Shown here: positions 1,629 through 33,051 of the stretch, one piece after another
Numbering within the stretch: position 1 is the first letter of the stretch
How the letters are laid out: every line of letters starts with the position of its first letter
Virus record (IMG/VR): IMGVR_UViG_3300020423_000007
Coordinates: 1-33,051 of that record
Origin: a virus
Strand: one strand, 5' to 3'
Length of the DNA: 33,051 nt
Position numbers and translations under genes: made by a program
The notes under the pieces: model-generated
Told to the model about the DNA's origin: nothing
The model's input: only the letters and a program-made list of their open reading frames with translations
The model's database searches: none

Positions 1629-1918
1629 TGCCTACAGATTATAAAAAAAGAGTGGAACAATGGATTCGAGAGAGTACAGAGAAAATGATAGAAGAAAAAA
1701 TTAAACCTATTATGAAAAAGCTTAAACATTTAAGAGCTACGTTTTTACAGTATGTAGATGAAAGATCAGTTCCTGGAGCATGGACAGACGAATTAAAAGA
1801 AGATTTTGAAATAATAGAATCATTAGAAACAGATTTAAATATTCGTAAGAGATTACTTCCAGGTGATATGAAACTTTGTAATAAATTGTATAATAAGTAT
1901 AGAGTTATATATGACTAA
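1628..1918 (+). CDS. Small helical charged protein, unknown function
   Basis: A 96-residue, probably all-helical protein. Alternating charged and hydrophobic residues over about 5-45 (KKRVEQWIRESTEKMIEEKI) are consistent with an amphipathic helix or coiled coil. ATG overlaps the preceding stop by one base, and the frame overlaps the deformylase gene by 8 bases, so it is probably co-translated with it. No family was recognised. Confidence 0.6.
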   Translation: MPTDYKKRVEQWIRESTEKMIEEKIKPIMKKLKHLRATFLQYVDERSVPGAWTDELKEDFEIIESLETDLNIRKRLLPGDMKLCNKLYNKYRVIYD

Positions 1919-2564
1919 AGTTATAAATTGTTTCAAAGAAGATAATCCAATTATCAATAAAAAACTTAGAAAGGTAAGTGTTGATGAAGGACTTAAAATT
2001 GCCGAGATTTTATTCACTACACTCAATGAGAGGAAAGATGGAATTGGTCTTGCGGCTAACCAGGTGGGTATTGACGCCGCTGTTGCTGTGGTTAATGTTA
2101 GGGAACCGCTTATTCTAATTAATCCTGTTATTAAAGAACAATGGGATGATATAATATATTATGAAGGTTGTTTATCATATAAAGGTAAGGGAATTGATAC
2201 TAAACGTTATAAGAATGTAGTTATTAAAACAGAACAAGAAGAATGTGATTGGTATTTTAGTGGAGTAGAAAATCCATCAGACGGTAGAGGTAGTTGGGAA
2301 CAAGAACAAAATTTAAAAAAAGATACAGAATCAAGATTACTTGAAACAATTTGTATTCAACACGAAATAGATCATTTAAATGGACTTACAATAATGGATA
2401 GAGAACATAAATTAGAACCACTTAGAATACCAAATAAGTTTGGAAGAAACGAAATAGTTGGTATTACAGATGGTAAAGAATTAGTAGAAATGAAATACAA
2501 AAAAGCAAAACCACTTATAGATAGTGGTAAATGGGAAATTTATATAGGAGGCCCGATAACATAA
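1911..2564 (+). CDS. def: Peptide deformylase
   Basis: Removes the formyl group from the N-terminal methionine of nascent proteins; a metalloenzyme acting in the cytoplasm at the ribosome exit. All three family motifs are visible: GIGLAANQ at residues 44-51, EGCLS at 85-89 (metal ligand Cys87), and HEIDH at 151-155 (ligands His151 and His155, catalytic Glu152). At 217 residues it is longer than many phage deformylases. About 30 extra residues (roughly 112-142, CDWYFSGVENPSDGRGSWEQ region) lie between motifs 2 and 3, and a tail follows the active site. Deformylases are known in marine T4-like phages. The last bases contain the first copy of a 26-bp repeat that is also the ribosome binding site of the next gene. 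Confidence 0.92.
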   Translation: MTKVINCFKEDNPIINKKLRKVSVDEGLKIAEILFTTLNERKDGIGLAANQVGIDAAVAVVNVREPLILINPVIKEQWDDIIYYEGCLSYKGKGIDTKRYKNVVIKTEQEECDWYFSGVENPSDGRGSWEQEQNLKKDTESRLLETICIQHEIDHLNGLTIMDREHKLEPLRIPNKFGRNEIVGITDGKELVEMKYKKAKPLIDSGKWEIYIGGPIT

Positions 2565-3565: not shown

Positions 3566-3585
3566 GAGGCCCAATAACATAATGA
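3560..3585 (+). repeat. 26-bp direct repeat, copy 2, with ribosome binding site
   Basis: Second copy, differing from 2542-2567 only at A3573. It contains the TAG stop of the ParB-like gene (3563-3565), AGGAGG (3564-3569) and ATG 3582 of the next gene. The first base of each copy is 1018 bases from the other, almost exactly one gene length. Confidence 0.9.
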
Positions 3586-4634
3586 AAAAAGCTTTAACTT
3601 ATGATGATATAAATATTGTCCCAAAATATTCGGAATTGGAATCTCGTAGTGATGTAGATTTATCTACAAAATTTACTAAAAAGATAAAATTATCTATTCC
3701 AGTAGTATCTACACCAATGGATACTGTAACAGAATATGATATGGCACGAGAAATGATGGATTGGGGCGGCGCTGGTATTGTACATAGATTTATGTCTATT
3801 GAAGAACAGGCAGGGATAATGGAAAAATTATGGTATATACCTGGTACCGACCATATTGTAGTAAAAAACAATTTACCTAGATGTGCAGCTATAGGAGTTA
3901 AGGGTGATTATTTAGAGAGAGCACAAGAATTAGTTAAGAATGGATGTAATGTTCTACTTATTGATGTAGCGCATGGACATCATAAATTAGTAGGAGATGC
4001 AATTGAAGAAATCAAAACCAAGTTATCAGGAGTTGAAATCGTTGCGGGATCAGTTGCGACAGGAGAAGCGTGTGAATACTTATGTGAAAAAGGAGCAGAC
4101 GCGATTAGAGTCGGAATTGGAAATGGATCGTTATGTGAAACGAGAATCAGAACGGGCGTGGGAATCCCTCAGGTGTCTGCTCTCATTGATTGTGTTGCCG
4201 TTGCTGATACTTTTGATACTCCCATTATTGCTGATGGTGGTGTTCGCACTATTGGTGATGTGTGTAAAGGACTTGCTTGTGGGGCTGACACGATTATGTT
4301 GGGTTCCCTTTTATCTGGTACAAAAGAAACTCCAGGAACGATTGAAAAAATAGGCGAGTGGCCTAATGAAATGTTATATAAAAAATATAGAGGGTCTGCA
4401 TCTTTAGATTCAAAACACGATAGAGGTGATGATAAAAATGTTGAAGGTAATCACAAAGTTATACCCTATAAGGGTAAGGTCAAAAGAATTCTTAAAGATA
4501 TACAAGAGGGAATTCGTAGTGCTTTCAGTTATGTTGGCGCTAACGATATTTCTGAGTTTCATTCTAAGGTAGAATTGATACAAGTTACAGGGGCAGGTAA
4601 TATTGAGGGAAAACCTCATTTACTTAATAGTTAA
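3582..4634 (+). CDS. IMP dehydrogenase / GMP reductase family enzyme without CBS domains
   Basis: A TIM-barrel purine nucleotide oxidoreductase. IMPDH makes XMP from IMP with NAD+ (guanine nucleotide synthesis); GMP reductase runs GMP to IMP. The sequence shows [18 protein letters not shown] at the N-terminus, [11 protein letters not shown], the active-site loop [12 protein letters not shown] at 177-188 with catalytic Cys185 and the conserved Thr two residues later, the phosphate loop [13 protein letters not shown], and the end motif [10 protein letters not shown]. At 350 residues it lacks the CBS (Bateman) regulatory domain and has GMPR-like length. YRG..S, VIPYKG and the C-terminal GAG motif are IMPDH-like. 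The flap is shortened (DSKHDRGDD then NVEG) and the Tyr of the IMPDH Arg-Tyr pair is not evident, so the reaction direction is uncertain. A patch at about 4030-4300 is clearly richer in G+C than its surroundings. Confidence 0.85.
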
Positions 4635-5652: not shown

Positions 5653-6186
5653 ATGCGTAAATTAATTGATTCTAGTAGTGTGTTGGCATTTATCCTTTTG
5701 ATAACTTTTTCAAATGGATTTATTTCAGTCAATATATTAGAAAAAAATAAGAGATATTATAACTCTTTAATAGAAACTATTAAAGAGGAAAATGTTGCAT
5801 TAACTGAAACTCTAACAGAGTTAAAAAGTGAAGGAATGGACGTGACTGTAACTATGTACCAACCTGTTCGTTATCAAACTGATTCTACACCGAACATTCT
5901 CGCAGATGGAACGCGTATTAAGACGGAAGAAGCGTCTAATTATAAATTTATAGCGGTGAGTAGAAATCTTTTGAAACGATGGGGCGGCTGGTTAAATTAC
6001 GGCGATTTTGTTTTACTTAAAGGTACAGATCATAAAGATGGTGTCTATCAAGTAAGAGATACAATGAATAAACGTTGGGTTAATCGTATTGATATTCTAG
6101 AATCTGTTAGTGTTAAACCATATAAAATGAATGGTCAAATACATAAAACAGATTTAGTACATTTTAATAAAGTGAGTAATGAATAA
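5653..6186 (+). CDS. 3D-domain cell-wall protein with N-terminal membrane anchor
   Basis: A 177-residue protein with an N-terminal hydrophobic segment (about 8-29, signal anchor), a short helical linker (30-60) and a 3D (Asp-Asp-Asp) domain of the double-psi beta-barrel fold shared with MltA/RlpA lytic transglycosylases. The three Asp positions are most likely Asp77 (TDSTPNILADG), Asp136 (VRDT) and Asp147 (RIDI); VTVTMYQP at 64-71 is the typical first strand. A peptidoglycan-cleaving or wall-binding role in lysis is likely. It is the first gene after the tmRNA and may start a new transcript. Confidence 0.75.
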   Translation: MRKLIDSSSVLAFILLITFSNGFISVNILEKNKRYYNSLIETIKEENVALTETLTELKSEGMDVTVTMYQPVRYQTDSTPNILADGTRIKTEEASNYKFIAVSRNLLKRWGGWLNYGDFVLLKGTDHKDGVYQVRDTMNKRWVNRIDILESVSVKPYKMNGQIHKTDLVHFNKVSNE

Positions 6187-12194: not shown

Positions 12195-12701
12195 ATGAAA
12201 AAAGGCGAGATGATAAAAATAATAGAACGAGTAGTTCGTAAGGAAGTTAAAAAACAAATGAATGAGATATTTATTAAAGAAGGAAACTCTACTTCTCTCA
12301 CCGAATTAGTTTCAAAATCATTAACCGAAAAAGAGTTTAAAGAGCCAATTAGAAAAGAATATAAAGTTGGTAAAAAAGAAGAAATTAAATATACGAAAAA
12401 TAAAGAGTTAAATAAAGTTTTGAATGAAACTAAAGGTGGACTCCCCCAGGGTGATGGAACTGAATCTTATCCTACGATGGGTGGAGGAATATTCGATTCG
12501 AATAAAGTAACAGAGGTAGCAATGCAGAGCGGAGAATTTGGAAACACTGGTGAATTTAAAAGAGAATTGGGCGCAGCAATGACAGCTAAGTCAGCAGGAG
12601 TACCAATTGAAAAAGTTCCAGAATCTACAATGAAAGCTTTAACAAGAGATTATAGTGATTTAATGAAAGCGATAGATAAGAAGAAAACAAATGGCGTCTA
12701 A
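12195..12701 (+). CDS. Structural or assembly protein, unidentified (168 aa)
   Basis: A 168-residue protein with a very charged helical N-terminus (MIKIIERVVRKEVKKQMNEI) like the N-terminal tags seen on many marine T4-like phage structural proteins, a Gly-rich middle (GGLPQGDGTESYPTMGGGIF) and a helical end. GGAG stands before ATG 12195. The final 11 bases overlap the gp25-like gene, which argues for co-translation with the baseplate wedge. No family was recognised. Confidence 0.55.
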   Translation: MKKGEMIKIIERVVRKEVKKQMNEIFIKEGNSTSLTELVSKSLTEKEFKEPIRKEYKVGKKEEIKYTKNKELNKVLNETKGGLPQGDGTESYPTMGGGIFDSNKVTEVAMQSGEFGNTGEFKRELGAAMTAKSAGVPIEKVPESTMKALTRDYSDLMKAIDKKKTNGV

Positions 12702-13083
12702 TAGAGAATATGATCAAGATCCAGATGTTACTATAGGGATAAGATTGCCAATTGATGAAAATTGGACACCATCAGAATCTACTATGACTGCAGCTGAGTT
12801 TAATATTCAAAATTTACTTAAAACTAAATATGGTGAAAGAGTGGCTCATCCTACTTTTGGATGTGCTCTAGCATCTATTTTATTTGAGCAAATGGATGAT
12901 TCTATAAATGATAAAGTAGATGAAGCACTAAATGATGCAATAGATAAATGGCTTCCCTATCTTAGAATTGTAAATATAGATACCAAAATAGATAATCGTA
13001 ATAGAAGATTAAACATTTCACTTACTTATGCTCTAAAAAATGACCCAACTAGAACAAATACTACTATGATTGTATATACTTAG
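12691..13083 (+). CDS. Baseplate wedge protein, gp25 family
   Basis: A 130-residue member of the GPW/gp25 family (T4 gp25 has 132), a sheath-initiating baseplate wedge component. The family core is visible: NIQNLLKTKYGERVAHPTFG (about 38-57) followed by CALASILFEQMDD, then helices and a final beta strand (RRLNISLTYALKNDP). The gene lies directly before the gp6-like gene, the usual order in contractile tails. It overlaps the previous frame by 11 bases. Confidence 0.9.
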   Translation: MASNREYDQDPDVTIGIRLPIDENWTPSESTMTAAEFNIQNLLKTKYGERVAHPTFGCALASILFEQMDDSINDKVDEALNDAIDKWLPYLRIVNIDTKIDNRNRRLNISLTYALKNDPTRTNTTMIVYT

Positions 13084-13093
13084 GAGTTAAAAT

Positions 13094-15004
13094 ATGCCAA
13101 CTTATAAAAAAGATATATCATATTTAGGAAGAGATTTTGCAGGTTTAAGAGGAAACCTTATAGAATTTGCAAAAACATATTTTCCTAATACTTATAAAGA
13201 TTTTAATGAATCTGCTCCTGGCACTATGTTTTTAGAATCTGCAGCATATGTTGGAGATGTTTTGGGTTATTACATTGATGCTATGTTTAAAGAAAGTTTG
13301 TTACCTTATGCAGAAGAAAAAAATCAAGTATATAATATAGCACAATTTATGGGATATACTCCCAGATTGATATCACCATCCATGGCTACAGTTACTTTTT
13401 CACAGGAAGTTCCAGCTATGACTGATGACCCAACACAACCAGATTATGATTATGCTTTAAATGTTAAAGCAACTACTAGACTATTCGCTCCTAATTTTGG
13501 AGTTGAATATAGATTGTTAACTGATTGTAATTTTAAAGTAGACCAGGGAGATGTTGTAAAAGAAATTTCACAAACATCAACTAATGGAACTATTGAATAT
13601 TATAGATTACATAAAAAAGTAACAGTTGTAAGTGGGTATAGTAAAACAGAATCATTTACATTTGGAAGCCCAATTAAATATGATAGAATAACCTTATCAG
13701 AAGAAAATGTAACAGATATTATTTCTGTAACCGATGGAGATGGAAATACTTGGTACGAGGTTCCATTTTTAGCACAAGATATGGTTTTTTCAGAATTTCA
13801 AAATATAGAGTCTAATGATACATCATTAGTTCAATTTGATGCTACAAATCCTTATATTTTAAAAAGATTGAAAACATCAAAAAGATTTAGAACTTATGTA
13901 AGACCAGATAAAAAAACTGAAATGCGGTTTGGTGCAGGGACTTTAGTAACTCCTGACGAAGAATTAATTCCAAATCCTGATAATGTTGGTAGTAATCTAC
14001 CAGGGTCTCCATCTAAATTAGGAATTGCTTTTGATCCTAATAATTTTACAAATACTAGAGCATATGGTGAAGCTCCGTCTAATACTTCATTGGAAATTAC
14101 TTATGCATTTGATGGTGGTTCTAAACATAATGTTAGGTCAGGCGAAATAAATTCTTTTGCTTCTAAAATTGTTACAAGTTTACCTTCAACATTAGATGGT
14201 AGTAAAATAACGAGAGTTAATAATTCATTGAGTGTAATTAATGATGAACCATCTTCAGGAGGAATGGATGTAGAATCTGTAGAAGAAATTAAACAAAATG
14301 CTATGGCATATTTCCAGGCTCAAAGTAGGTCGGTAACTAAAGATGATTTACTTGTTAGAATTTATGCGTTGCCTGAAAGATATGGTAATATAGCTAAAGC
14401 TTATGTTGTGCAAGATGAACAAATAACTACACAACCTGGAGAAGAATTAACTTTTAGTAAAAATCAATTTGGATTAAATTTATATTTACTTGGGTATAAT
14501 AATAATCGTAAATTAACTAAATTAAATGATGTTACTAAAAAGAATCTTAAAATGTATTTAGATAGATTTAGAATGGTAACAGATGCTTATAATATAAAGG
14601 ATGCTTATATAGTTAATATAGCTATTAAATTTGATCTATTAACAAAAAAAGGTTATAATAAAAATGAAGTTTTAGTGAATGCAATTAATGAAATGAAAAA
14701 TTATTTTAATATAGATAGGTGGCAAGTTAATCAACCACTTGTAATTGCTGAGGTGGTAGCAAAGTTAATAGAAGTTGAAGGTGTGGTTGGAGTAGAAACG
14801 CCTAGTGATTCTAATCCACTAGGAACAAATATAGTAATAGAAAATAGATATGATACTGCAAAGGGATATTCAGGAAATGTATATGATTTAGGAGATCCAG
14901 CGGTGATCAAAAATGGTGTAGTTTATCCATCTAGAGACCCAGCAATTTTTGAATTAAAATATCCAGATACAGATATTATCGGTAGAGTAGTAGGAGACGT
15001 ATAA
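13094..15004 (+). CDS. Baseplate wedge protein, gp6-like
   Basis: A 636-residue protein (T4 gp6 has 660). The N-terminus is characteristic: DISYLGRDFAGLRGNLIEFA (7-26), then SAPGTMFLESAAYVGDVLGYYID (about 41-63), then FMGYTPRLISPSMATV. A central baseplate-J-like region contains EIKQNAMAYFQAQSRSVTKDD, and a C-terminal part (about 480-570) continues the wedge fold. gp6 dimers form the inner ring of the baseplate. GGAG stands before ATG 13094. The stop overlaps the next ATG by one base. Confidence 0.9.
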   Translation: MPTYKKDISYLGRDFAGLRGNLIEFAKTYFPNTYKDFNESAPGTMFLESAAYVGDVLGYYIDAMFKESLLPYAEEKNQVYNIAQFMGYTPRLISPSMATVTFSQEVPAMTDDPTQPDYDYALNVKATTRLFAPNFGVEYRLLTDCNFKVDQGDVVKEISQTSTNGTIEYYRLHKKVTVVSGYSKTESFTFGSPIKYDRITLSEENVTDIISVTDGDGNTWYEVPFLAQDMVFSEFQNIESNDTSLVQFDATNPYILKRLKTSKRFRTYVRPDKKTEMRFGAGTLVTPDEELIPNPDNVGSNLPGSPSKLGIAFDPNNFTNTRAYGEAPSNTSLEITYAFDGGSKHNVRSGEINSFASKIVTSLPSTLDGSKITRVNNSLSVINDEPSSGGMDVESVEEIKQNAMAYFQAQSRSVTKDDLLVRIYALPERYGNIAKAYVVQDEQITTQPGEELTFSKNQFGLNLYLLGYNNNRKLTKLNDVTKKNLKMYLDRFRMVTDAYNIKDAYIVNIAIKFDLLTKKGYNKNEVLVNAINEMKNYFNIDRWQVNQPLVIAEVVAKLIEVEGVVGVETPSDSNPLGTNIVIENRYDTAKGYSGNVYDLGDPAVIKNGVVYPSRDPAIFELKYPDTDIIGRVVGDV

Positions 15005-25329: not shown

Positions 25330-26430
25330 ATGTTTAAGCCGATTGGAGAAGGCAACGCGACAATCACCCCGTTTAAAGTTTTTAAACAATACGAATTCAC
25401 TGACGCGGATAGTGGAAGTGGAGTTTTTGTTCTTGAAGGCACTAGCGGAAGTTATTTTAATTATAGTACTGCGTCTGCACAGTCAAAATCTATTGGTACT
25501 TTAAATGAATTATCAAAATCTCTTGGAAAAGATAAAGATACTTGGTATAGTGTAGGTACTTATTATAACCTTCCTGTTTATAATTCAATTAATCATTTAT
25601 ATTATAAATTTGAACAACAAAACAACCCTAGGGGAATTGCTCCACAACCACAATTTAGTTTTAATCAAGATCCTTGGCCTAGAGATTCATCTGGGTCATT
25701 TTTAAATAAAATACATAATAGTTTAAGAGTTATTAACATTCCCCGAAAATTTTTCGGAGAAGAAATAAAACCTGGGTCTGTACGACTAATTGATAATTCT
25801 TTGACAGATGAAACTCTTACTTTAGTAGATGATGAAAGAGGACATTTATATGATACTGTTTATTCATCTAGTTTTGCAAGAAGGTCTTCATCATTATCGG
25901 GATCTAATGTAGTGGTAGGTGATGCGATAGGAAATATATTTTATGATCAAGGTCTACTTGTAATTACTGATACGGGGTCAAAATATGGTAATGTGGCAAA
26001 ATTGGAAGGTACAGATGGTTTTGAATTAAAATTACAGGGAACTAAAACAATCAGAGAATATGAATTTTTATGTAATATACAAGAACATGAATATAATGGG
26101 ACCGATAATATAAGTGCAACTCCAGGTAGAAGTGGCTCACAATTACTTGGAAGCGATTTAACTGGATATTTTATGGAAGGAATTCATAATACTGTAACAG
26201 GATCAGTTTATAATGAAATTGGAACTCAAGAAGAATATGATACGAGCTCAGTATATAGACCATCTGGAGTATATTCAAATTTTGTAACACATTCAGCTTT
26301 TAATCCATATATAACAAGTATTGGGTTATATAATGATAACAAAGAACTCTTAGCAGTCGCTAAACTCGCAAGACCAATCAAAAAACCAAAAGAATACGAT
26401 ATATCATTTACTATTAGATTTGACAATTAA
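25330..26430 (+). CDS. Tail or fibre structural protein with the shared C-terminal module (366 aa)
   Basis: A 366-residue protein, beta-rich with many Ser/Gly (SSSLSGSNVVVGDAIGN; TGSKYGNVAKLEGTDGFELK). Includes LRVINIPRKFFGEEIKPGSV, then a C-terminal module shared with the preceding gene. It ends the rightward structural block; about 100 bases of AT-rich sequence follow. GAGGTGAG lies just upstream of ATG 25330. The first 120 bases are richer in G+C than the surroundings. No named family was recognised. Confidence 0.65.
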   Translation: MFKPIGEGNATITPFKVFKQYEFTDADSGSGVFVLEGTSGSYFNYSTASAQSKSIGTLNELSKSLGKDKDTWYSVGTYYNLPVYNSINHLYYKFEQQNNPRGIAPQPQFSFNQDPWPRDSSGSFLNKIHNSLRVINIPRKFFGEEIKPGSVRLIDNSLTDETLTLVDDERGHLYDTVYSSSFARRSSSLSGSNVVVGDAIGNIFYDQGLLVITDTGSKYGNVAKLEGTDGFELKLQGTKTIREYEFLCNIQEHEYNGTDNISATPGRSGSQLLGSDLTGYFMEGIHNTVTGSVYNEIGTQEEYDTSSVYRPSGVYSNFVTHSAFNPYITSIGLYNDNKELLAVAKLARPIKKPKEYDISFTIRFDN

Positions 26431-26471
26431 AATACTAATATATATTATATTTATTATCTAATAAAGTCTAT

Positions 26472-26491
26472 ACCTTTTTAATCTAAAAGGT
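26472..26491. terminator. Weak hairpin in the gap before the export cassette
   Basis: ACCTTTT (26472-26478) pairs with AAAAGGT (26485-26491) around TAATCT. There is no U-run, so termination is doubtful. It marks the border between virion genes and exported-protein genes, next to an AT-rich TATATTTATT stretch at 26446-26455. Confidence 0.3.
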
Positions 26492-26532
26492 CATAAAACA
26501 AACATATACTTATAACGAATTGGAGATTTGCC

Positions 26533-29298
26533 TTGAATTACATTGCTAAATTTTTAATGGGGTTAATAATGATGCTGAGTTTCGCAGAAGCTCAAACACC
26601 AATTATTAGACTTATACAATCAAGAGAATACAATACACCTAAATTTTGGTGGAGAGCTCAAGAAAATTTTAAGTTGAGAGGATACTTGGCCGATGACACT
26701 ACTGGATTGGCTAATCCGACCAATGGTAGTTATAAGAGTAAAACAAGAGGTGTAGCTTATAAGAATAATAACTTTGATGCCTGGAGAGATTCTGTAATGA
26801 CTATCGCTGTTACACTTGATGACAACGATGCATCTGTAACGGCTTTTAGATTGGATTTAGTATTTGATAATGATTTAATAGATTGGACTCATGATTCAAC
26901 ACGCGTGGAGAAAGGTGCATACATCAATGGTTGGACTGAGGGAGATAGTTCAGCTGGTGCACATTATTCATATGAAGTAGTTCGTTATGCTAATGTGGGA
27001 TATACAGATTCTTTAGCAGCTGGTGGAACACAAGATACTTCAAAATCTATTACATCTAATGATTATGATTGGTTAAGAATCACAATGGTATCACATAATG
27101 GTAATGTTAAAACATTTGGTGCTGGCGATTCTGTACAAACAGAATTATTAAAATTACATTTTAAAATAGATGATGTGGCGGATAATTTTTCCGCCAAATC
27201 ATTTAGAGTAGCAACGAAGTATTTATCTGGAACAGGATATTATACTTATGTAACAAATGGAAATTATTTAACAACTTATCAAGTTTATATAGATGGTAAT
27301 ACGGGACAAGATGGAGTTGGTATAGGTGGTGCTCGTGGTGATATTACATTACATCCAAAACTTGTAGATGTTGAGGGTTACTTTAGATATGTTCAAGGTA
27401 AAAATAGAGCAGTTGGAGCTGCATTTACTACAGCAACAGATAACACGTATCCATATTGGAAAATAAAATTTGAATTAGACCAAAGTAATCCACATTCTTA
27501 TTCTAATTGGTATAACATAGAATCAATTTCAGATGCTGGATTAACAACAGAGAATAATACTACTGATGATGTAATTGGTAATTTTCAACCAGGAGCTCCT
27601 GGATATTTTTATGATAAAAAATCAACAAGAGCAGACCAAGTAGTTCCAGCAGAGGGATTTCTTGGTATAAGTTATTATGATTCAACCTATACAGATTCTA
27701 ATGGATATTATAATATTCAATTACCAAGAAATAATGGATACCGAATGTCATTTTGGCCACCTGACTCAAGTGATAATATAGAGAATCATTCACAACTTGA
27801 ATTAGATAGGGAACAAATTACAAATGTAACCGATGCTATAATGTCATTTAATTTCCAATCTGGTAAACATCACAATTATAATAGTGGTGGTGGAAGAATA
27901 GATACATTAAATGCTATAGAATATTTTATTGGTGATGTAGATGGTGATGATTTGTTTCATTTGAATGACACTTATATTTTATGGAGTTATGTATCAGGTA
28001 TTATGAGTAATTATACACACCATAATGGAAACTCATATGAAGATTGGTCTACGATAGATACATTTTATGTTGCGGGAACACCTACAGCACGAGGATATTA
28101 TCAAACTCTAAACGGACAATCAAGACCACAAAAATATGAGTTTACAGTATTTGAAGATGGTGATTTTAATCAAGCTCAAGCTTTAACATATGGGCCTATA
28201 GAAACTATTAATCCATTGATGGATGATATTATAACTGGATTAGATACAATACATTATAATGTTGGTAATGGTACATCTGCTTGGATGAGCGAAGTAAATC
28301 CAGATTATACTATTGATAGTTTAGCATATTTCTTTACAGGTGATGTAAATACTACTGGTACAAAAGTTGGTAGTGATGCTTATCAAACACAAACTAACAC
28401 TACGACATATTATCGTTGGGGAAGTAATGCACCAAGTGAGTGGTCAGCAAAAGTTAATCCAGGAACAGGTTTAAGTTCACGAGCATTAAATAGAACTATG
28501 AATGATGTTGATGTATATCTTTCATTACCTGCAGACTCAACTGTAAGGGTTCAGTCAGGTAATCAGATAGAAGTTCCATTAACTATTACACCAAATGAGG
28601 GAATTCTAATATCTGGTTTTGAATTTGAGGTTGAGTTTGATACAACTATATTAGAATTTGTTGATATGAAAACTGATGTCTTACCAGGGCCATGGTTGAC
28701 TTATGTAAATGTTGATGAGCCTGTTAATAATTGGCAAAGAGTTGCTTTCGGTGCAGTTGATTATTCACCAAGCAACGCACCAGAAAGATATTGGATTGAT
28801 AAAGAAATGGCAGGATTGAAACTAATATTTCAAGCTAACTTTCCTGATACAGAATGGACTGAAGCACCAATTAGATTTGTTGGTAAACATGCAGCAGGTA
28901 GTCCAGCTGGTAGAGATTTAAGTATGAGTAGAGATGATGGTATGGTATTGGTGTGGAATAAATATTGGGCATTCGGTGGTGGAAAACCAGACAATGATGC
29001 TCTTACTTATAACTACCCAAATCCATTTACAGAAAATACAAAGTTTCAGTTTTATTTAGAAGAACCGAAAGATGTTAAATTGTATATTTTAAACTCAATA
29101 GGACAAAAGGTTGGAACACTTTTAAATGAACACGTGTTACCTGGATTGCATACTTTTGATTTTACAAATGAACCTACAGTTTGGTTACCAGAGGTTAGTG
29201 TTTATGAAAACCATCAGAAGTTAGAACCTGGAGTTTATATATTTGTATTACAGACAGATAACAAAATTAAAGCTAATAAATTTACGGTGGTGAAATAA
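26533..29298 (+). CDS. Large exported protein with cohesin/dockerin-like modules and a type IX secretion sorting domain
   Basis: A 921-residue protein with a signal peptide (MNYIAKFLMGLIMMLSFAEA, cleavage near AEA-QT). Modules in rough order: cohesin-like beta region about 86-215 (AFRLDLVFDNDLIDW); carboxypeptidase-regulatory-like strand region about 376-413 (TDSNGYYNIQLPRNNGY); dockerin-like segment 468-494 (GDVDGDDLFHLND) and a weaker one near 600 (GDVNTTGTKVGSDAY); second cohesin-like region about 660-795 (ISGFEFEVEFDTTILEFVDM); C-terminal sorting domain 829-921 (YNYPNPFTENTKFQFYL; LEPGVYIFVL; ANKFTVVK). That tail is the signature of type IX secretion type A sorting domains in FCB bacteria. 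Start TTG is fixed by GGAG 7 bases upstream. A surface-anchored or secreted scaffold is inferred; a T9SS cargo in a phage genome is unusual. Confidence 0.8.
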   Translation: MNYIAKFLMGLIMMLSFAEAQTPIIRLIQSREYNTPKFWWRAQENFKLRGYLADDTTGLANPTNGSYKSKTRGVAYKNNNFDAWRDSVMTIAVTLDDNDASVTAFRLDLVFDNDLIDWTHDSTRVEKGAYINGWTEGDSSAGAHYSYEVVRYANVGYTDSLAAGGTQDTSKSITSNDYDWLRITMVSHNGNVKTFGAGDSVQTELLKLHFKIDDVADNFSAKSFRVATKYLSGTGYYTYVTNGNYLTTYQVYIDGNTGQDGVGIGGARGDITLHPKLVDVEGYFRYVQGKNRAVGAAFTTATDNTYPYWKIKFELDQSNPHSYSNWYNIESISDAGLTTENNTTDDVIGNFQPGAPGYFYDKKSTRADQVVPAEGFLGISYYDSTYTDSNGYYNIQLPRNNGYRMSFWPPDSSDNIENHSQLELDREQITNVTDAIMSFNFQSGKHHNYNSGGGRIDTLNAIEYFIGDVDGDDLFHLNDTYILWSYVSGIMSNYTHHNGNSYEDWSTIDTFYVAGTPTARGYYQTLNGQSRPQKYEFTVFEDGDFNQAQALTYGPIETINPLMDDIITGLDTIHYNVGNGTSAWMSEVNPDYTIDSLAYFFTGDVNTTGTKVGSDAYQTQTNTTTYYRWGSNAPSEWSAKVNPGTGLSSRALNRTMNDVDVYLSLPADSTVRVQSGNQIEVPLTITPNEGILISGFEFEVEFDTTILEFVDMKTDVLPGPWLTYVNVDEPVNNWQRVAFGAVDYSPSNAPERYWIDKEMAGLKLIFQANFPDTEWTEAPIRFVGKHAAGSPAGRDLSMSRDDGMVLVWNKYWAFGGGKPDNDALTYNYPNPFTENTKFQFYLEEPKDVKLYILNSIGQKVGTLLNEHVLPGLHTFDFTNEPTVWLPEVSVYENHQKLEPGVYIFVLQTDNKIKANKFTVVK

Positions 29299-29405
29299 TG
29301 AGTGAATTACAATTTTTCTTCACATTAGCTGCTATGCTTCCAGCGTTATATTTCACAATGAAATTTGTTGTTTGGATAGCAGAAAAAATAGAGAGTAAAA
29401 AATGA
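29298..29405 (+). CDS. 35-residue single-pass membrane peptide
   Basis: A frame from ATG 29298, which shares a base with the cargo gene's TAA, to TGA 29403-29405, which overlaps the next ATG (29402). The product begins MSELQFFFTLAAMLPALYFT and ends KIESKK; one membrane helix of about 20 residues and a basic end. The exact joining at both ends supports a translated gene coupling the cargo to the barrel protein. Function is unknown; it may be an accessory peptide in the membrane. Confidence 0.5.
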   Translation: MSELQFFFTLAAMLPALYFTMKFVVWIAEKIESKK

Positions 29406-30238
29406 AAAAAATATTATTAAGTTTATTATTAATAAGTTCGTTGTTTGGCCAAGCCAATAGAATATTAACCATAGCACCTACTGCTCAAACGAGTTCAATT
29501 GGTAATGTGATGTTACCAATGATGAATCCAGCACGTAATCTTTATAATAAAGATATGTTTAGTTTCAGTAGAGTTAATTGGATGCCAAATATTGTAGATG
29601 ATATGAATTATAATTTTATAAATATGGATAGAGGGCCATTTGGTGTTAGTGTTATGTTTTTTAATTATGGAGAACAAAAGGCAACTGACATAGATGGAAT
29701 TATAGATGGAACATTTACCCCATTAAGTGCAGTATATAGTGTAGATTATGCACGTAAAGTTGGTAAATATAATTTAGGATTAAATGCAAAAGTAATAACA
29801 CACGACTTACATACACAGAAAGCAACTGGATTTCTTTTTGGTGTTGGTGGATATTTTCCTAAAGTGTATAAAGATTTAGATGTAGATGTTATGGTTCGTA
29901 ATTTTGGATTTGCACCAAAGTTTGGTAGTTATAAATCAGAATTACCTACAAGTCTAAATATAGCTGGAACATATCCATATAAAGATTTTATGTTTTATGG
30001 ACAATTTAATAAAATGACAAAACATCAAACATTTGGTATGGGAACAAGTTATAATTATAAAAATATGTTATGGGGTAAAGTTGGATATTATATGGATGAT
30101 ACACATGAATTAACTTATCCTACATTTGGATTAGATTTTAAATATGATAAATATATTATTGGTATGAGTTATATTTATGGAGACAAGACGTTACCATTAG
30201 GTAACACAATTAGATTAACAATAAACTTGGAGTTGTAA
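29402..30238 (+). CDS. PorV/PorQ-like outer-membrane barrel protein
   Basis: A 278-residue exported protein: signal peptide MKKILLSLLLISSLFGQ, then a segment typical of the PorV/PorQ/UPF0164 family (APTAQTSSIGNVMLPMMNPA, with the NPA motif), then alternating amphipathic strands throughout and a terminal strand ending in an aliphatic residue (TIRLTINLEL). PorV and PorQ are outer-membrane beta-barrels of the type IX secretion apparatus that carry cargo to the cell surface. Being next to a T9SS cargo supports a functional link. The family assignment rests on motif and architecture and is not certain; it might be a different FCB barrel. Confidence 0.65.
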   Translation: MKKILLSLLLISSLFGQANRILTIAPTAQTSSIGNVMLPMMNPARNLYNKDMFSFSRVNWMPNIVDDMNYNFINMDRGPFGVSVMFFNYGEQKATDIDGIIDGTFTPLSAVYSVDYARKVGKYNLGLNAKVITHDLHTQKATGFLFGVGGYFPKVYKDLDVDVMVRNFGFAPKFGSYKSELPTSLNIAGTYPYKDFMFYGQFNKMTKHQTFGMGTSYNYKNMLWGKVGYYMDDTHELTYPTFGLDFKYDKYIIGMSYIYGDKTLPLGNTIRLTINLEL

Positions 30239-30239
30239 A

Positions 30240-30632
30240 ATGGCAAAGAAAAAAGTAGTGGATGCAGAATCCGCAATTGAGGATATGAAAAATAAAAAGT
30301 TTGGATTATCAATTCAGAATATCATAGCACTTGTAACAGTATTATCAACAGGAATAGCAGGTTGGTATTCATTTACTGGTCGTATTGATGGATTAGAAGA
30401 AATAGTTACAGGATTTGCAGATGCAAGTGATATTGAGTTGGTAACACAAAAACTTACTTCATATGATGAAGATATAAAGTATCTACGTGATAAACTTGAT
30501 AACTTAAAAACACCCAAAATGAAATCTTATGATGGGGATATTGTGAAACTTCAGGGTGAGATTAATAAGTTAAAAGGTGAAATAGGCAGACTTGAAAAAT
30601 TACTTAAAGATCCATTAGCAGATTTTAAATAG
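30240..30632 (+). CDS. Membrane-anchored coiled-coil protein (130 aa)
   Basis: A 130-residue protein with a basic N-terminus, one membrane helix at about 24-46 (SIQNIIALVTVLSTGIAGWY) and a long coiled coil at about 75-125 (YLRDKLDNLK; LQGEINKLKGEIGRLEKLL). It starts one base after the barrel gene stop and precedes the CsgG-like gene by 9 bases. The topology suggests a periplasmic spacer or bridging protein. A spanin-like role is possible, but no cleavage site or lipobox partner arrangement typical of spanins was seen. Confidence 0.65.
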   Translation: MAKKKVVDAESAIEDMKNKKFGLSIQNIIALVTVLSTGIAGWYSFTGRIDGLEEIVTGFADASDIELVTQKLTSYDEDIKYLRDKLDNLKTPKMKSYDGDIVKLQGEINKLKGEIGRLEKLLKDPLADFK

Positions 30633-30641
30633 GAGATAACA

Positions 30642-31304
30642 ATGAAAAACAATTATCGTTTTGTATTGTTTTTTGTTTTCGGTTTGGTTGTATCCAATAT
30701 AATAGGATGTGCCGCTTCCGTTCAAACAGAACAATACGTTGGTGAGTATGAAAAAGAAAAATCTTTAGATGAAATTGTAATAACAAAAGTTGATGGATTA
30801 AAACTTTATGATTTAAAGTTTAACAAAGAGTTAGAAGAACGATACCCTGAATTAGCAGATAAAAGAGTTTCTATGGGTCTTGTTCAAGAACTTCAGAATG
30901 TAATCTCTTATGTTGGTAGATTTAATTTAGTGGAAGCTGAAAGAGATATGCAACTTTTGATTATGAATGATTTGAGAGCCAACGATGCTAAGATTACAAA
31001 AGCTAAATATTCCGCAAGTGTTAGTATTTATGATTTCGCAGTAAATCTAAAAGAAGAAATAAAGGCAGGTAAGGTGGAGACTATCAATGAAACAATCGTT
31101 GGTATTCAAGTTAAGTTAATTAATAACGAGAATACACAATATGTTGTTGGTAGTGGACAAGGAAGAGCTTCAACCGTAGGTAAAGGATTTTTAATGAATC
31201 CTAATATGGCTTGGAATCAATCTTCTTTGAGTTCCGCATCAAATAAAGCTATGGAGACCGCTGTAGTCAATGTTATAAAAGCAATTGACAGACGAGGTTG
31301 GTAG
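30642..31304 (+). CDS. CsgG-like outer-membrane lipoprotein
   Basis: A 220-residue lipoprotein: hydrophobic signal, lipobox SNIIGC with Cys23, and Ala at +2, compatible with outer-membrane sorting. The body resembles CsgG (curli export channel) and related small-repeat lipoproteins: VSMGLVQELQNVISYVGRFN (76-95), ASVSIYDFAVNLKEE, VGIQVKLINNENTQYVVGSG, and a C-terminal Ala-rich helix ending VVNVIKAIDRRGW. E. coli CsgG has 277 residues, so this is shorter. CsgG forms an outer-membrane channel; export of a surface protein is inferred. GGAG precedes the ATG. A second, related gene begins at 32459. Confidence 0.72.
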   Translation: MKNNYRFVLFFVFGLVVSNIIGCAASVQTEQYVGEYEKEKSLDEIVITKVDGLKLYDLKFNKELEERYPELADKRVSMGLVQELQNVISYVGRFNLVEAERDMQLLIMNDLRANDAKITKAKYSASVSIYDFAVNLKEEIKAGKVETINETIVGIQVKLINNENTQYVVGSGQGRASTVGKGFLMNPNMAWNQSSLSSASNKAMETAVVNVIKAIDRRGW

Positions 31305-31309
31305 AATGA

Positions 31310-32353
31310 ATGTGGCAGAAACTTTTACTTTTTTTATTATTAGGGAGTAGTATCTCTGCCCAATCGTTCCATTATTCTTATGTAGACCCGTGTGAACAAA
31401 CTATAGTTAGTAGTAATTATAAGATTTCATCAAATCAAGAAGGTTTTACTGTAACTTATTACAATCGTACTAAGTTTTTTACATTAGAAGAGGCGTTAAC
31501 AATAGTACGGTATGAAACTGATTCATTTGGAAATAAAATACCAGTATATGCTATAGAAGATTGGACACAATCCGTTTATGACGATTTTGAAGATTTATTT
31601 CCTTGTGCAGTAAAAGTAGCTGAAGAGATATTATCTTCAGTAATTGCAGAAAATGTTAGTGAACAATTTAGTAAATCAGATGAGGGTGGTGGAGAAGATA
31701 TTTCATCTACTCCACAACAGGTCAATTATGCAGTTCGTTCTTCTCCAGGTCCAGAAAGATGGATAACTTCATTTAATAGTGTTTATACGGCTACAAGTTT
31801 TGATGGTAGTAAACGACACGATGGCAATTTTAATTTTACAAATGATTTTAGAAAAGGCTCTCTTACATATGGACAAGGATTTAAGTTTAAAGCAAAAAAA
31901 CAAAATGTAGTAATAAATGGAAGTGCTTTAACATATAGAACATTTGAGGGTTGGGATTGGTTAGTATCAACTTCTTTTGCAAAATCATTAATGAAAAAGA
32001 ATTCTGAAGCATTTGTTCTTACTGGTTCATATGGAAATGTTAGTGGTAATGATTTTGGAAATTTAACAATGGTGTATGGGCAAAGATTTCCATTTGATTT
32101 AGGTCAAGTTAAAGTTAGTTTTTCTAATTATATTGCTTATACACTTATGAGGTATTATGAGGGTAATAATAAGGATGACAGATATTTATTATTGAGAAGT
32201 CCGATTATTTTTATGCCAACCATTTCAATGGATTGGAAATTAGGTACGGCTTTCTCATTTAACTTAGGTGTTTCAATGGGATATAACACCGTAGTTAATG
32301 ATTATGGGGAAAGAGATAAGACTTTTAGTATCTTATTTGGAACTTATTTTTAG
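31310..32353 (+). CDS. Predicted outer-membrane barrel protein, unidentified
   Basis: A 347-residue exported protein: signal peptide MWQKLLLFLLLGSSISAQ, an N-terminal soluble part with two Cys (FHYSYVDPCEQTIV and DLFPCAVKVAEE) that may form a disulphide, an acidic linker (SDEGGGEDISSTPQQ), and from about residue 150 a run of alternating strands ending in an aromatic residue (FSILFGTYF), the usual end of an outer-membrane barrel. ATG 31310 gives the clean signal peptide; ATG 31306 is quickly closed. No family was recognised. Placed between two CsgG-like genes, it could be an accessory pore or anchor. Confidence 0.65.
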   Translation: MWQKLLLFLLLGSSISAQSFHYSYVDPCEQTIVSSNYKISSNQEGFTVTYYNRTKFFTLEEALTIVRYETDSFGNKIPVYAIEDWTQSVYDDFEDLFPCAVKVAEEILSSVIAENVSEQFSKSDEGGGEDISSTPQQVNYAVRSSPGPERWITSFNSVYTATSFDGSKRHDGNFNFTNDFRKGSLTYGQGFKFKAKKQNVVINGSALTYRTFEGWDWLVSTSFAKSLMKKNSEAFVLTGSYGNVSGNDFGNLTMVYGQRFPFDLGQVKVSFSNYIAYTLMRYYEGNNKDDRYLLLRSPIIFMPTISMDWKLGTAFSFNLGVSMGYNTVVNDYGERDKTFSILFGTYF

Positions 32354-32363
32354 GAGAAATATA

Positions 32364-32447
32364 ATGATATACGCATGTGATAATCCAAATTGTGAATGTG
32401 AAAATTGTCAATGTGAAAATTGTCAATGTGAAAATTGTAATTGTTAA
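32364..32447 (+). CDS. 27-residue cysteine-rich peptide
   Basis: A short frame with AGGAG 6-10 bases before ATG 32364, ending TAA 32445-32447. It encodes MIYACDNPNCECENCQCENC then QCENCNC: nine Cys in 27 residues, spaced in C-x-C and C-x2-C steps built from a repeated C-E-N-C-Q unit. Composition resembles metallothionein-like or metal-binding peptides, but size is below known families. It lies between genes for exported envelope proteins, with no signal peptide of its own. Function unknown; metal binding or redox buffering is the simplest guess. Confidence 0.55.
   Translation: MIYACDNPNCECENCQCENCQCENCNC
32397..32441 (+). repeat. Three tandem 15-bp units within the Cys-rich peptide gene
   Basis: TGTGAAAATTGTCAA repeats at 32397-32411 and 32412-32426, and a third copy at 32427-32441 ends TAAT instead of TCAA. 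The repeats encode C-E-N-C-Q units. Likely made by slippage or unequal recombination, and copy number may vary. Confidence 0.85.
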
Positions 32448-32458
32448 GGGAAACAAAT

Positions 32459-33051
32459 ATGAATTACATTAAAGCAAAAGTAATAAATTGGGGATTTAAG
32501 TTGGCCACGTTAGGAGTCTTGGCATTTACATTATGTAGTGTTGCTAATGGCCAAGTAGAAATAGAACGAATGAGAAACGAGGCTAAAGAACGTAGAGAGC
32601 AGGCAAGACAAGAAGCTAAAGCTCAAAATTTACCAACCCCTGCAATTGTAGATGCTGATTTAATTAGACCAACATTAACTGTATCTAAGTTTGTTGGAAC
32701 AAGTGAAAATGTCGGTATAAAAGACGATAGAATCACTATGGGAATACAACAATTATTACAAGAATCATTCCAAGAATCAGATTATATTTTAACTGACGAT
32801 ACTGATGCTAATTTTACTGTATCGGCAGAGATAGTTTATATCGGTAGACCAAACGAAGCATTTAGTATAGTTGGTATATTCAATCGTAGAAAAACTAAAA
32901 CACAAGTAAGATTGAATGTATTGTTAACAGAGAATGCTACTGGTAAAGTAATATCAAGTAGAGGTATGGGTGAGATTGATACAAAGATATCTGCGACTGG
33001 TTTACAGATTGAAGAAGATGGTGTTCCATTTAGTAATAGTGAATTGGGTGG
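32459..33051 (+). CDS. Second CsgG-like exported protein (incomplete at window end)
   Basis: The frame starts at ATG 32459 and is still open at the last base, giving 197 residues. A signal peptide (FKLATLGVLAFTLCSVANGQ) is followed by a charged helix (EIERMRNEAKERREQARQEA) and a domain like CsgG: RPTLTVSKFVGTSENVGIKD, MGIQQLLQESFQESDYILTD, ANFTVSAEIVYIG, TQVRLNVLLTENATGKVISS, then GMGEIDTKISATGL. No lipobox Cys sits at the usual place, unlike the lipoprotein at 30642. It may be the partner of that protein, giving a pair of CsgG-like components in one cassette. Confidence 0.65.
   Translation, partial: MNYIKAKVINWGFKLATLGVLAFTLCSVANGQVEIERMRNEAKERREQARQEAKAQNLPTPAIVDADLIRPTLTVSKFVGTSENVGIKDDRITMGIQQLLQESFQESDYILTDDTDANFTVSAEIVYIGRPNEAFSIVGIFNRRKTKTQVRLNVLLTENATGKVISSRGMGEIDTKISATGLQIEEDGVPFSNSELG

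Follow-up and report, generated by a model that had tools for sequence, protein, structure and literature searches.

What a phage gains from a run of genes for exported envelope proteins placed directly behind its tail genes is the question raised by positions 26,533 to 33,051 of a linear IMG/VR virus record (IMGVR_UViG_3300020423_000007; the window is the whole 33,051 bases of this record). A preliminary description of this DNA had listed eight consecutive genes here, following the tail block with no strong terminator, and had read them as a phage-encoded cassette combining type IX secretion system (T9SS) and curli-type export features. All eight ORFs are present (Table 1), no intrinsic terminator lies in 26430-26533, and the predicted export of the cassette proteins agrees with a crude signal-peptide rule, which was positive for 92-100% of the members of the cargo, PorV, CsgG1, barrel and CsgG2 families compared with 21% of other ORFs.

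Judged from its genes, the source of the window is a T4-like myovirus, with baseplate wedge genes (gp25-like and gp6-like) at 12691-15004. Judged by the gp6-like protein, Microcystis phage Mel-JY01 (42%) is the nearest named phage and Flavobacterium phage immuto (36%) the next, with one metagenomic phage (37%) between them; tblastn searches of the Microcystis phage, whose host is a cyanobacterium and which is the closest named phage by baseplate, with the cargo, PorV, CsgG1 and barrel proteins gave no match. Upstream of the cassette, the stretch ATATATTATATTTATTA around the second hexamer of the promoter-like sequence is found again 5' of the cargo gene in most window-type loci, and the AT-rich motif is not enriched across the window as a whole. 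Stem-loops are predicted at the position of the leader hairpin in many relatives; their sequences differ and RNAalifold gave no consensus structure on this alignment.

Table 1 Features of the cassette and its leader in the window.
Feature	Position	Strand	Basis
Promoter-like TTGACA-17-TATTAT, just 5' of the cassette	26420..26448	+	11/12 matches, best of the region; consensus match only
Small hairpin region in the cargo leader, without U tract	26462..26496 (ends approximate)	+	predicted
T9SS cargo, TTG start	26533..29298	+	TIGR04183 and PF00963 above curated cut-offs; 35-member alignment
35-aa single-helix membrane protein	29298..29405	+	ORF
PorV/PorQ-family outer-membrane barrel	29402..30238	+	NF033709 over cut-off; PDB PorV match
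130-aa inner-membrane protein with one helix between a short cytoplasmic N-tail and a periplasmic coiled coil	30240..30632	+	20-member alignment
CsgG-like lipoprotein (CsgG1), best-conserved member	30642..31304	+	lipobox IIGC; Foldseek CsgG
Two-Cys (DPC/FPC) N-domain and 12-strand outer-membrane barrel	31310..32353	+	AF2 model
27-aa Cys-rich peptide	32364..32447	+	lineage-specific ORF
CsgG2, second CsgG-like exported protein, incomplete at contig end	32459..33051	+	hhalign

The cargo was found in 60 viral loci. Where the contig extends far enough, the order is tail genes, cargo, PorV, coiled-coil protein, CsgG1, barrel and CsgG2, followed by a protein of ~240 aa; three divergent loci (L049, L052 and L053) have other genes upstream of the cargo. 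An assembly chimera joining phage and bacterial DNA near 26430-26530, which has a negligible probability, was rejected because the junction recurs: the proteins of one contig (L057) are 100% identical to those of the window on both sides of it, and dozens of other, independent marine viral contigs keep the tail genes followed by the cargo. The cassette appears from sequence comparison to be swapped independently of the tail genes, the tail proteins of one locus (L063) being 92-96% identical to those of the window and its cargo 58%, and those of another (L003) 32-39% with a cargo of 86%. In a set of 18 dereplicated loci CsgG1 (79% median pairwise identity) and the coiled-coil protein (77%) vary least, and the barrel (64%), cargo (63%), CsgG2 (52%) and PorV (48%) vary more; four tail proteins have medians of 37-49%.

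Beyond the window-type phages a core can be recognised, consisting of a cargo with a cohesin and a T9SS C-terminal sorting domain (CTD), a small inner-membrane protein, CsgG1, a two-Cys N-domain/barrel protein and CsgG2. Forty dereplicated loci have at least 5 kb upstream and at least 4 kb downstream; two of them (L157 and L161) are chromosomal, and in 37 of the remaining 38 phage lineages the core order is kept, with the CTD cargo, DPC-barrel and CsgG2 around CsgG1, which confirms the conservation of gene order across related phage contigs. Since the loci from L075 onward were retrieved by CsgG1 alone, the search itself did not select for the other genes that co-occur there. The reading of the block as an envelope-protein module stands in part, as a phage-encoded, conserved cassette of predicted exported proteins with T9SS- and CsgG-type parts, and is narrowed in that PorV and the Cys-rich peptide lie outside the core.

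A scan with a joint CsgG1 alignment revealed at least 560 CsgG1-encoding viral contigs, of which 80 were taken further, and eight contigs in GTDB, mostly from FCB phyla; a profile search of genome contigs with the cargo alignment gave no matches. The smallest module-bearing phage records are under 100 kb long and the largest over 300 kb. The CsgG1 homologue also led to a cultured phage, Flavobacterium phage vB_FspM_immuto, which carries the core as gp014-gp019: gp014 is cohesin-like and dockerin-like (judged by eye), gp015 is the cohesin and CTD protein (44.8 bits), gp016 the membrane protein, gp017 CsgG1, gp018 the DPC N-domain/barrel and gp019 CsgG2. This phage has no PorV. In record coordinates, ~66 kb separate its block from the baseplate genes; the neighbours of the block are replication and nucleotide genes, and a glucosaminidase endolysin is 19 genes away.

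The cargo of the window comprises a signal peptide, cohesin-like and TTR-like regions, a dockerin-like EF loop (DVDGDDLFHLND), a cohesin and a type A C-terminal sorting domain. Its sorting domain scores 26.0 bits with TIGR04183 (cut-off 23) and its cohesin 25.9 bits with PF00963 (cut-off 24.1); tested members mostly reach 24.3-43.2 bits for the cohesin, a few falling slightly under the cut-off. By the crude rule 137 of 138 CTD proteins have a signal peptide, compared with 21% of control ORFs. Dockerin PF00404 scores 16.2-19.3 bits in some 634-aa cargos, under the Pfam cut-off of 22.9. Along the 634-aa type the domain order is TTR, dockerin, cohesin and CTD; PDB profiles match the dockerin (4uyp_B, E 2.8e-4) and the T9SS CTD (8glj_D), and the TTR and cohesin matches are weak. 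The type IX cargo with cohesin/dockerin-like modules of the preliminary description is supported as a predicted one, with a dockerin-like part that scores below the Pfam cut-off. The cargo of the window group is 921 aa long and looks like a fusion of parts resembling gp014 and gp015.

The 16 large phage records contain exactly one CTD protein apiece, and none of them has SprA, the T9SS translocon and the sole T9SS component searched for in this comparison. As a positive control, the identical search was over cut-off in six of eight cellular genomes with related loci; these six all belong to FCB phyla. This distribution suggests that the cargo should depend on the T9SS of the host, and export through it is the natural inference from these searches.

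The PorV-like protein scores 103.7 bits with NF033709 (cut-off 90), and its profile matches PDB PorV 6h3i_F at 1.4e-14. Both equivalog tests were missed by a wide margin, with 50.5 bits for PorV (NF033710, cut-off 250) and 61.8 for PorQ (NF033711, cut-off 220). A role as cargo shuttle is possible. Among the 16 large records it is present in 5/5 of the window type and 0/11 of the others; being absent outside window-type phages, it was rejected as a core member, so that the PorV/PorQ-like barrel described earlier is upheld as to family and limited to one phage group. Both of the small membrane proteins are also present: the 130-aa protein is conserved, and an ORF homologous to the 35-aa protein occurs in 7 of 11 other window-type loci checked. 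The 130-aa coiled-coil protein is weakly similar to DUF2730 and to Rz-like spanins. The geometry of the genes at 30240 and 30642 is like that of a two-component spanin, but the lipoprotein has a predicted CsgG fold and gp017 of immuto lacks a lipobox.

The two CsgG-like proteins are recognised by different means, CsgG1 by its modelled fold and CsgG2 by profile comparison with CsgG1. PF03783 matches neither protein of the window up to an E-value of 10. The AF2 model of CsgG1 is of low confidence (mean pLDDT 60); its top Foldseek match is CsgG (4uv2, E 1.1e-5, prob 1.00, TM 0.35-0.44), and it contains one long hairpin, compared with the two transmembrane hairpins that form the shared barrel of the CsgG pore. 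A CsgG1 homologue on a chromosomal Ignavibacteriales contig (L157) scores 28.6 with PF03783 (cut-off 20.8); the genes behind it encode a CsgG2 homologue, a protein whose transglutaminase-like match is sub-threshold, and a CHASE2 cyclase. CsgG2 aligns with CsgG1 at an hhalign probability of 95.7 in profile-profile comparison, and the two proteins align with immuto gp017 (CsgG1, 99.9) and gp019 (CsgG2, 98.0). The CsgG label thus reflects predicted fold and kinship, and a pore is predicted at most.

As for the curli-type export proposed earlier, the CsgG superfamily fold is retained and the type is not that of the pelagiphage curli operon; no CsgA, CsgB, CsgE or CsgF partner was recognised in the block by Pfam or NCBIfam. 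The other predicted barrel is supported by the AF2 model, which gives an N-domain followed by 12 strands. The N-domain has two invariant cysteines and aligns with immuto gp018 (hhalign 92.8); Foldseek matches of the barrel to OmpT, FapF and porins are unspecific. The Cys-rich peptide has a genuine ORF, lacks a signal peptide and is confined to the window and one close relative (L002/L032); as a lineage-specific ORF it is probably outside the module and was rejected as a member.

Companion genes accompany the module in several phages, namely gp013 of immuto, genes for 556-565 aa proteins after CsgG2 in other phages, and a gene in L082. Their products end in a similar dockerin-like unit (by eye) and have varying heads, Lectin_C, Laminin_G_3 or PA14, all above curated cut-offs; in window-type loci no such companion, lectin-bearing or other, was found. 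That the carbohydrate-binding heads change while the connector stays constant suggests that adhesive domains may be displayed by a surface-anchored cohesin.

We judge it about an even chance that these genes form a conserved phage operon for remodelling the outer membrane and surface of an infected cell, a T9SS-bearing bacterium of the FCB group. The cargo would be taken across the inner membrane by Sec and then through the outer membrane by the host T9SS, aided in the group of the window by the phage PorV-like shuttle, and would be displayed on the cell surface. Its cohesin and dockerin-like modules may multimerise or hold companions with lectin or PA14 heads, and the CsgG-like proteins could assemble with the barrel into a ring-plus-barrel complex of the outer membrane by which further components are exported or anchored. 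The likeliest benefit would be altered adhesion of the infected cell, by aggregation, capture of neighbours or receptor masking. The surface-coating, exclusion and matrix roles proposed in the preliminary description are, like these steps, tentative.

The module tends towards the lysis region, and its expression may fall near that of the lysis genes in time. Of 29 dereplicated non-PorV phage loci, 19 have a GH19 endolysin within 10 genes; a weakly spanin-like coiled-coil protein is encoded 3-7 genes after CsgG1, downstream of CsgG2, in 14/14 PorV loci; and holin-like genes occur near the module in several loci. In L139, the genes after CsgG2 are for a secreted protein of 150 aa, a protein that reads by eye as holin-like, GH19 and an M15 peptidase. 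The lineages are related and these counts are therefore not independent trials. The placement speaks for expression near the time of lysis and leaves room for a rather doubtful rival, which it fits equally well, in which the CsgG-like lipoprotein, the barrel and the inner-membrane coiled-coil protein would together span the envelope as a complex and permeabilise the outer membrane while the cargo weakens the surface layer. A lysis role has been proposed for phage CsgGF pores (PMC9004378), but it leaves no obvious part for a T9SS-exported cohesin/lectin scaffold, dedicated endolysin and spanin-like genes are present separately, and in immuto the module is placed apart from the endolysin as described above.

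Two further explanations carry less weight. That the genes are virion structural or tail-accessory genes is suggested by their position next to the tail genes in window-type phages, yet it is very improbable on the indirect evidence of the signal peptides of nearly all members, the distance from the baseplate genes in immuto and the exchange independent of tail genes in L063 and L003. A literature search for virion proteomics of immuto found none, PMC7077304 making no mention of these phages. Superinfection exclusion, in which the exported proteins would mask or remodel receptors against adsorption by other phages, is unlikely, if clearly less so than a virion role. Outer-membrane lipoproteins are a classical exclusion device, but exclusion factors are usually one small protein, whereas the complex here comprises several genes and is highly conserved alongside diverging tail proteins. 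Superinfection-related and competition roles have been suggested for the T9SS cargos of Cryophage (PMC7468147).

Surface remodelling of the infected cell would have partial precedents, phage curli-type pores and phage T9SS cargo each being already known. A CsgF/CsgG operon is present in pelagimyophages and in Melnitz, and either sibling capture (PMC7029224) or lysis control (PMC9004378) has been proposed as its role. This operon (CsgF, CsgG and CsgB-like; HTVC008M) resembles the module in joining a CsgG-type protein to other predicted exported proteins; unlike the module, HTVC008M has CsgF and amyloid-like proteins and no reported T9SS cargo. Kinship with its CsgG and CsgF was rejected, as comparisons in which one side was a single sequence gave hhalign probabilities of 2 and 1 for CsgG against CsgG1 and CsgG2 and no profile similarity between CsgF and the barrel family. 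The variable cargo genes of Cryophage, called a unique occurrence there, are like that of the module in encoding T9SS type A sorting domains and would use the host T9SS; by contrast, they are enzyme/PA14 genes in hypervariable islands, and the available part of the account describes no conserved CsgG-barrel module (PMC7468147). T9SS sorting domains also occur in some phages with crAss-type BACON domains (PMC6949934).

Among cellular systems, the PorV/PorQ and T9SS cargo of Bacteroidota are matched by a PorV-family protein and a CTD likewise over cut-off in the window, whereas the phage protein is far under the equivalog cut-offs and SprA was not found in the phages. Cellulosome scaffolds are similar in combining cohesin with dockerin-like and TTR-like units, both within a single protein and in companions; the module differs in being phage-borne and CTD-bearing, with lectin/PA14 heads rather than enzymes and a dockerin under the Pfam cut-off. 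PelC, a CsgG-fold lipoprotein ring, and FapF, a 12-strand amyloid exporter barrel, are among the fold matches of the module proteins, a likeness at fold level from low-confidence models, and no exported polymer was recognised for the module. No description of the combined T9SS-cargo and CsgG/barrel module was found in the open-access literature searched.

It is possible, if on the improbable side, that the module represents a widespread class of phage apparatus in FCB phages new to the literature, a surface scaffold of cohesin-dockerin type that depends on the host T9SS, with exchangeable carbohydrate-binding heads as part of the same tentative claim, combined with a CsgG-ring/barrel, by which infected cells would stick to or capture neighbours before lysis. 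The findings suggest that phage use of the host T9SS extends beyond one cryoconite phage, as a fixed multi-gene T9SS module appears in a large phage group, its CsgG-like member being encoded by at least 560 viral contigs. The module joins T9SS, CsgG-type secretion and cohesin-dockerin architecture in phages and provides a functional hypothesis for a large set of genes annotated as hypothetical. As the cultured phage immuto carries it, the question of why phages encode curli-like pores becomes directly testable.

Homologues of the module's two CsgG-like proteins are encoded side by side in a chromosomal operon of the Ignavibacteriales (L157), a possible cellular origin of the phage CsgG pair. 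As in this operon, a cyclase gene lies near the curli genes of the pelagiphage HTVC008M. Upstream of the type IX cargo gene, the promoter-like match is followed by the AT-rich stretch ATATATTATATTTATTA and then a small hairpin, both of which recur 5′ of the cargo in most phages with the PorV-bearing cassette. This region appears to be where tail/cassette sequence exchange has its breakpoint.

Features in the window and at related loci (L-numbers)
Feature	Location	Basis
Promoter-like match (top one of the region), AT-rich stretch and small hairpin	window 26420-26500	promoter: consensus match
27-aa peptide, CEN-CQC repeats	window 32364-32447	
Secreted ~150-aa protein, KIDDVGDxWK...	L139 11595-12047 and relatives	
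CsgG1-CsgG2-(weak transglutaminase-like)-CHASE2 cyclase operon, Ignavibacteriales	L157 10001-16040	
Protein with N-terminal membrane segment	window 5653-6186	
~240-aa conserved protein	L065 16132-16866 and relatives	
IMP dehydrogenase-like phage gene (PHROG dehydrogenase)	window 3582-4634	
Peptide deformylase phage gene	window 1911-2564	

The Cys-rich peptide probably binds metal; outside the window it was seen in just one near relative. The secreted protein, weakly similar to PPPDE peptidases, is encoded near the module, often on the opposite strand, in 17 of the 31 loci lacking a PorV-like gene.

The protein with a membrane segment had no match in Pfam; by eye it resembles 3D-domain murein-active enzymes and is possibly the endolysin of this phage. 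The ~240-aa protein is a candidate for a new spanin type of these phages: it has an N-terminal helix and a coiled coil, and its C-terminus is constant, reading PPRNQxSxGPxVGxxYxxxTGLTxPxxGxGVTYNxxKxWDW. The dehydrogenase-like and deformylase genes are candidate auxiliary metabolic genes.
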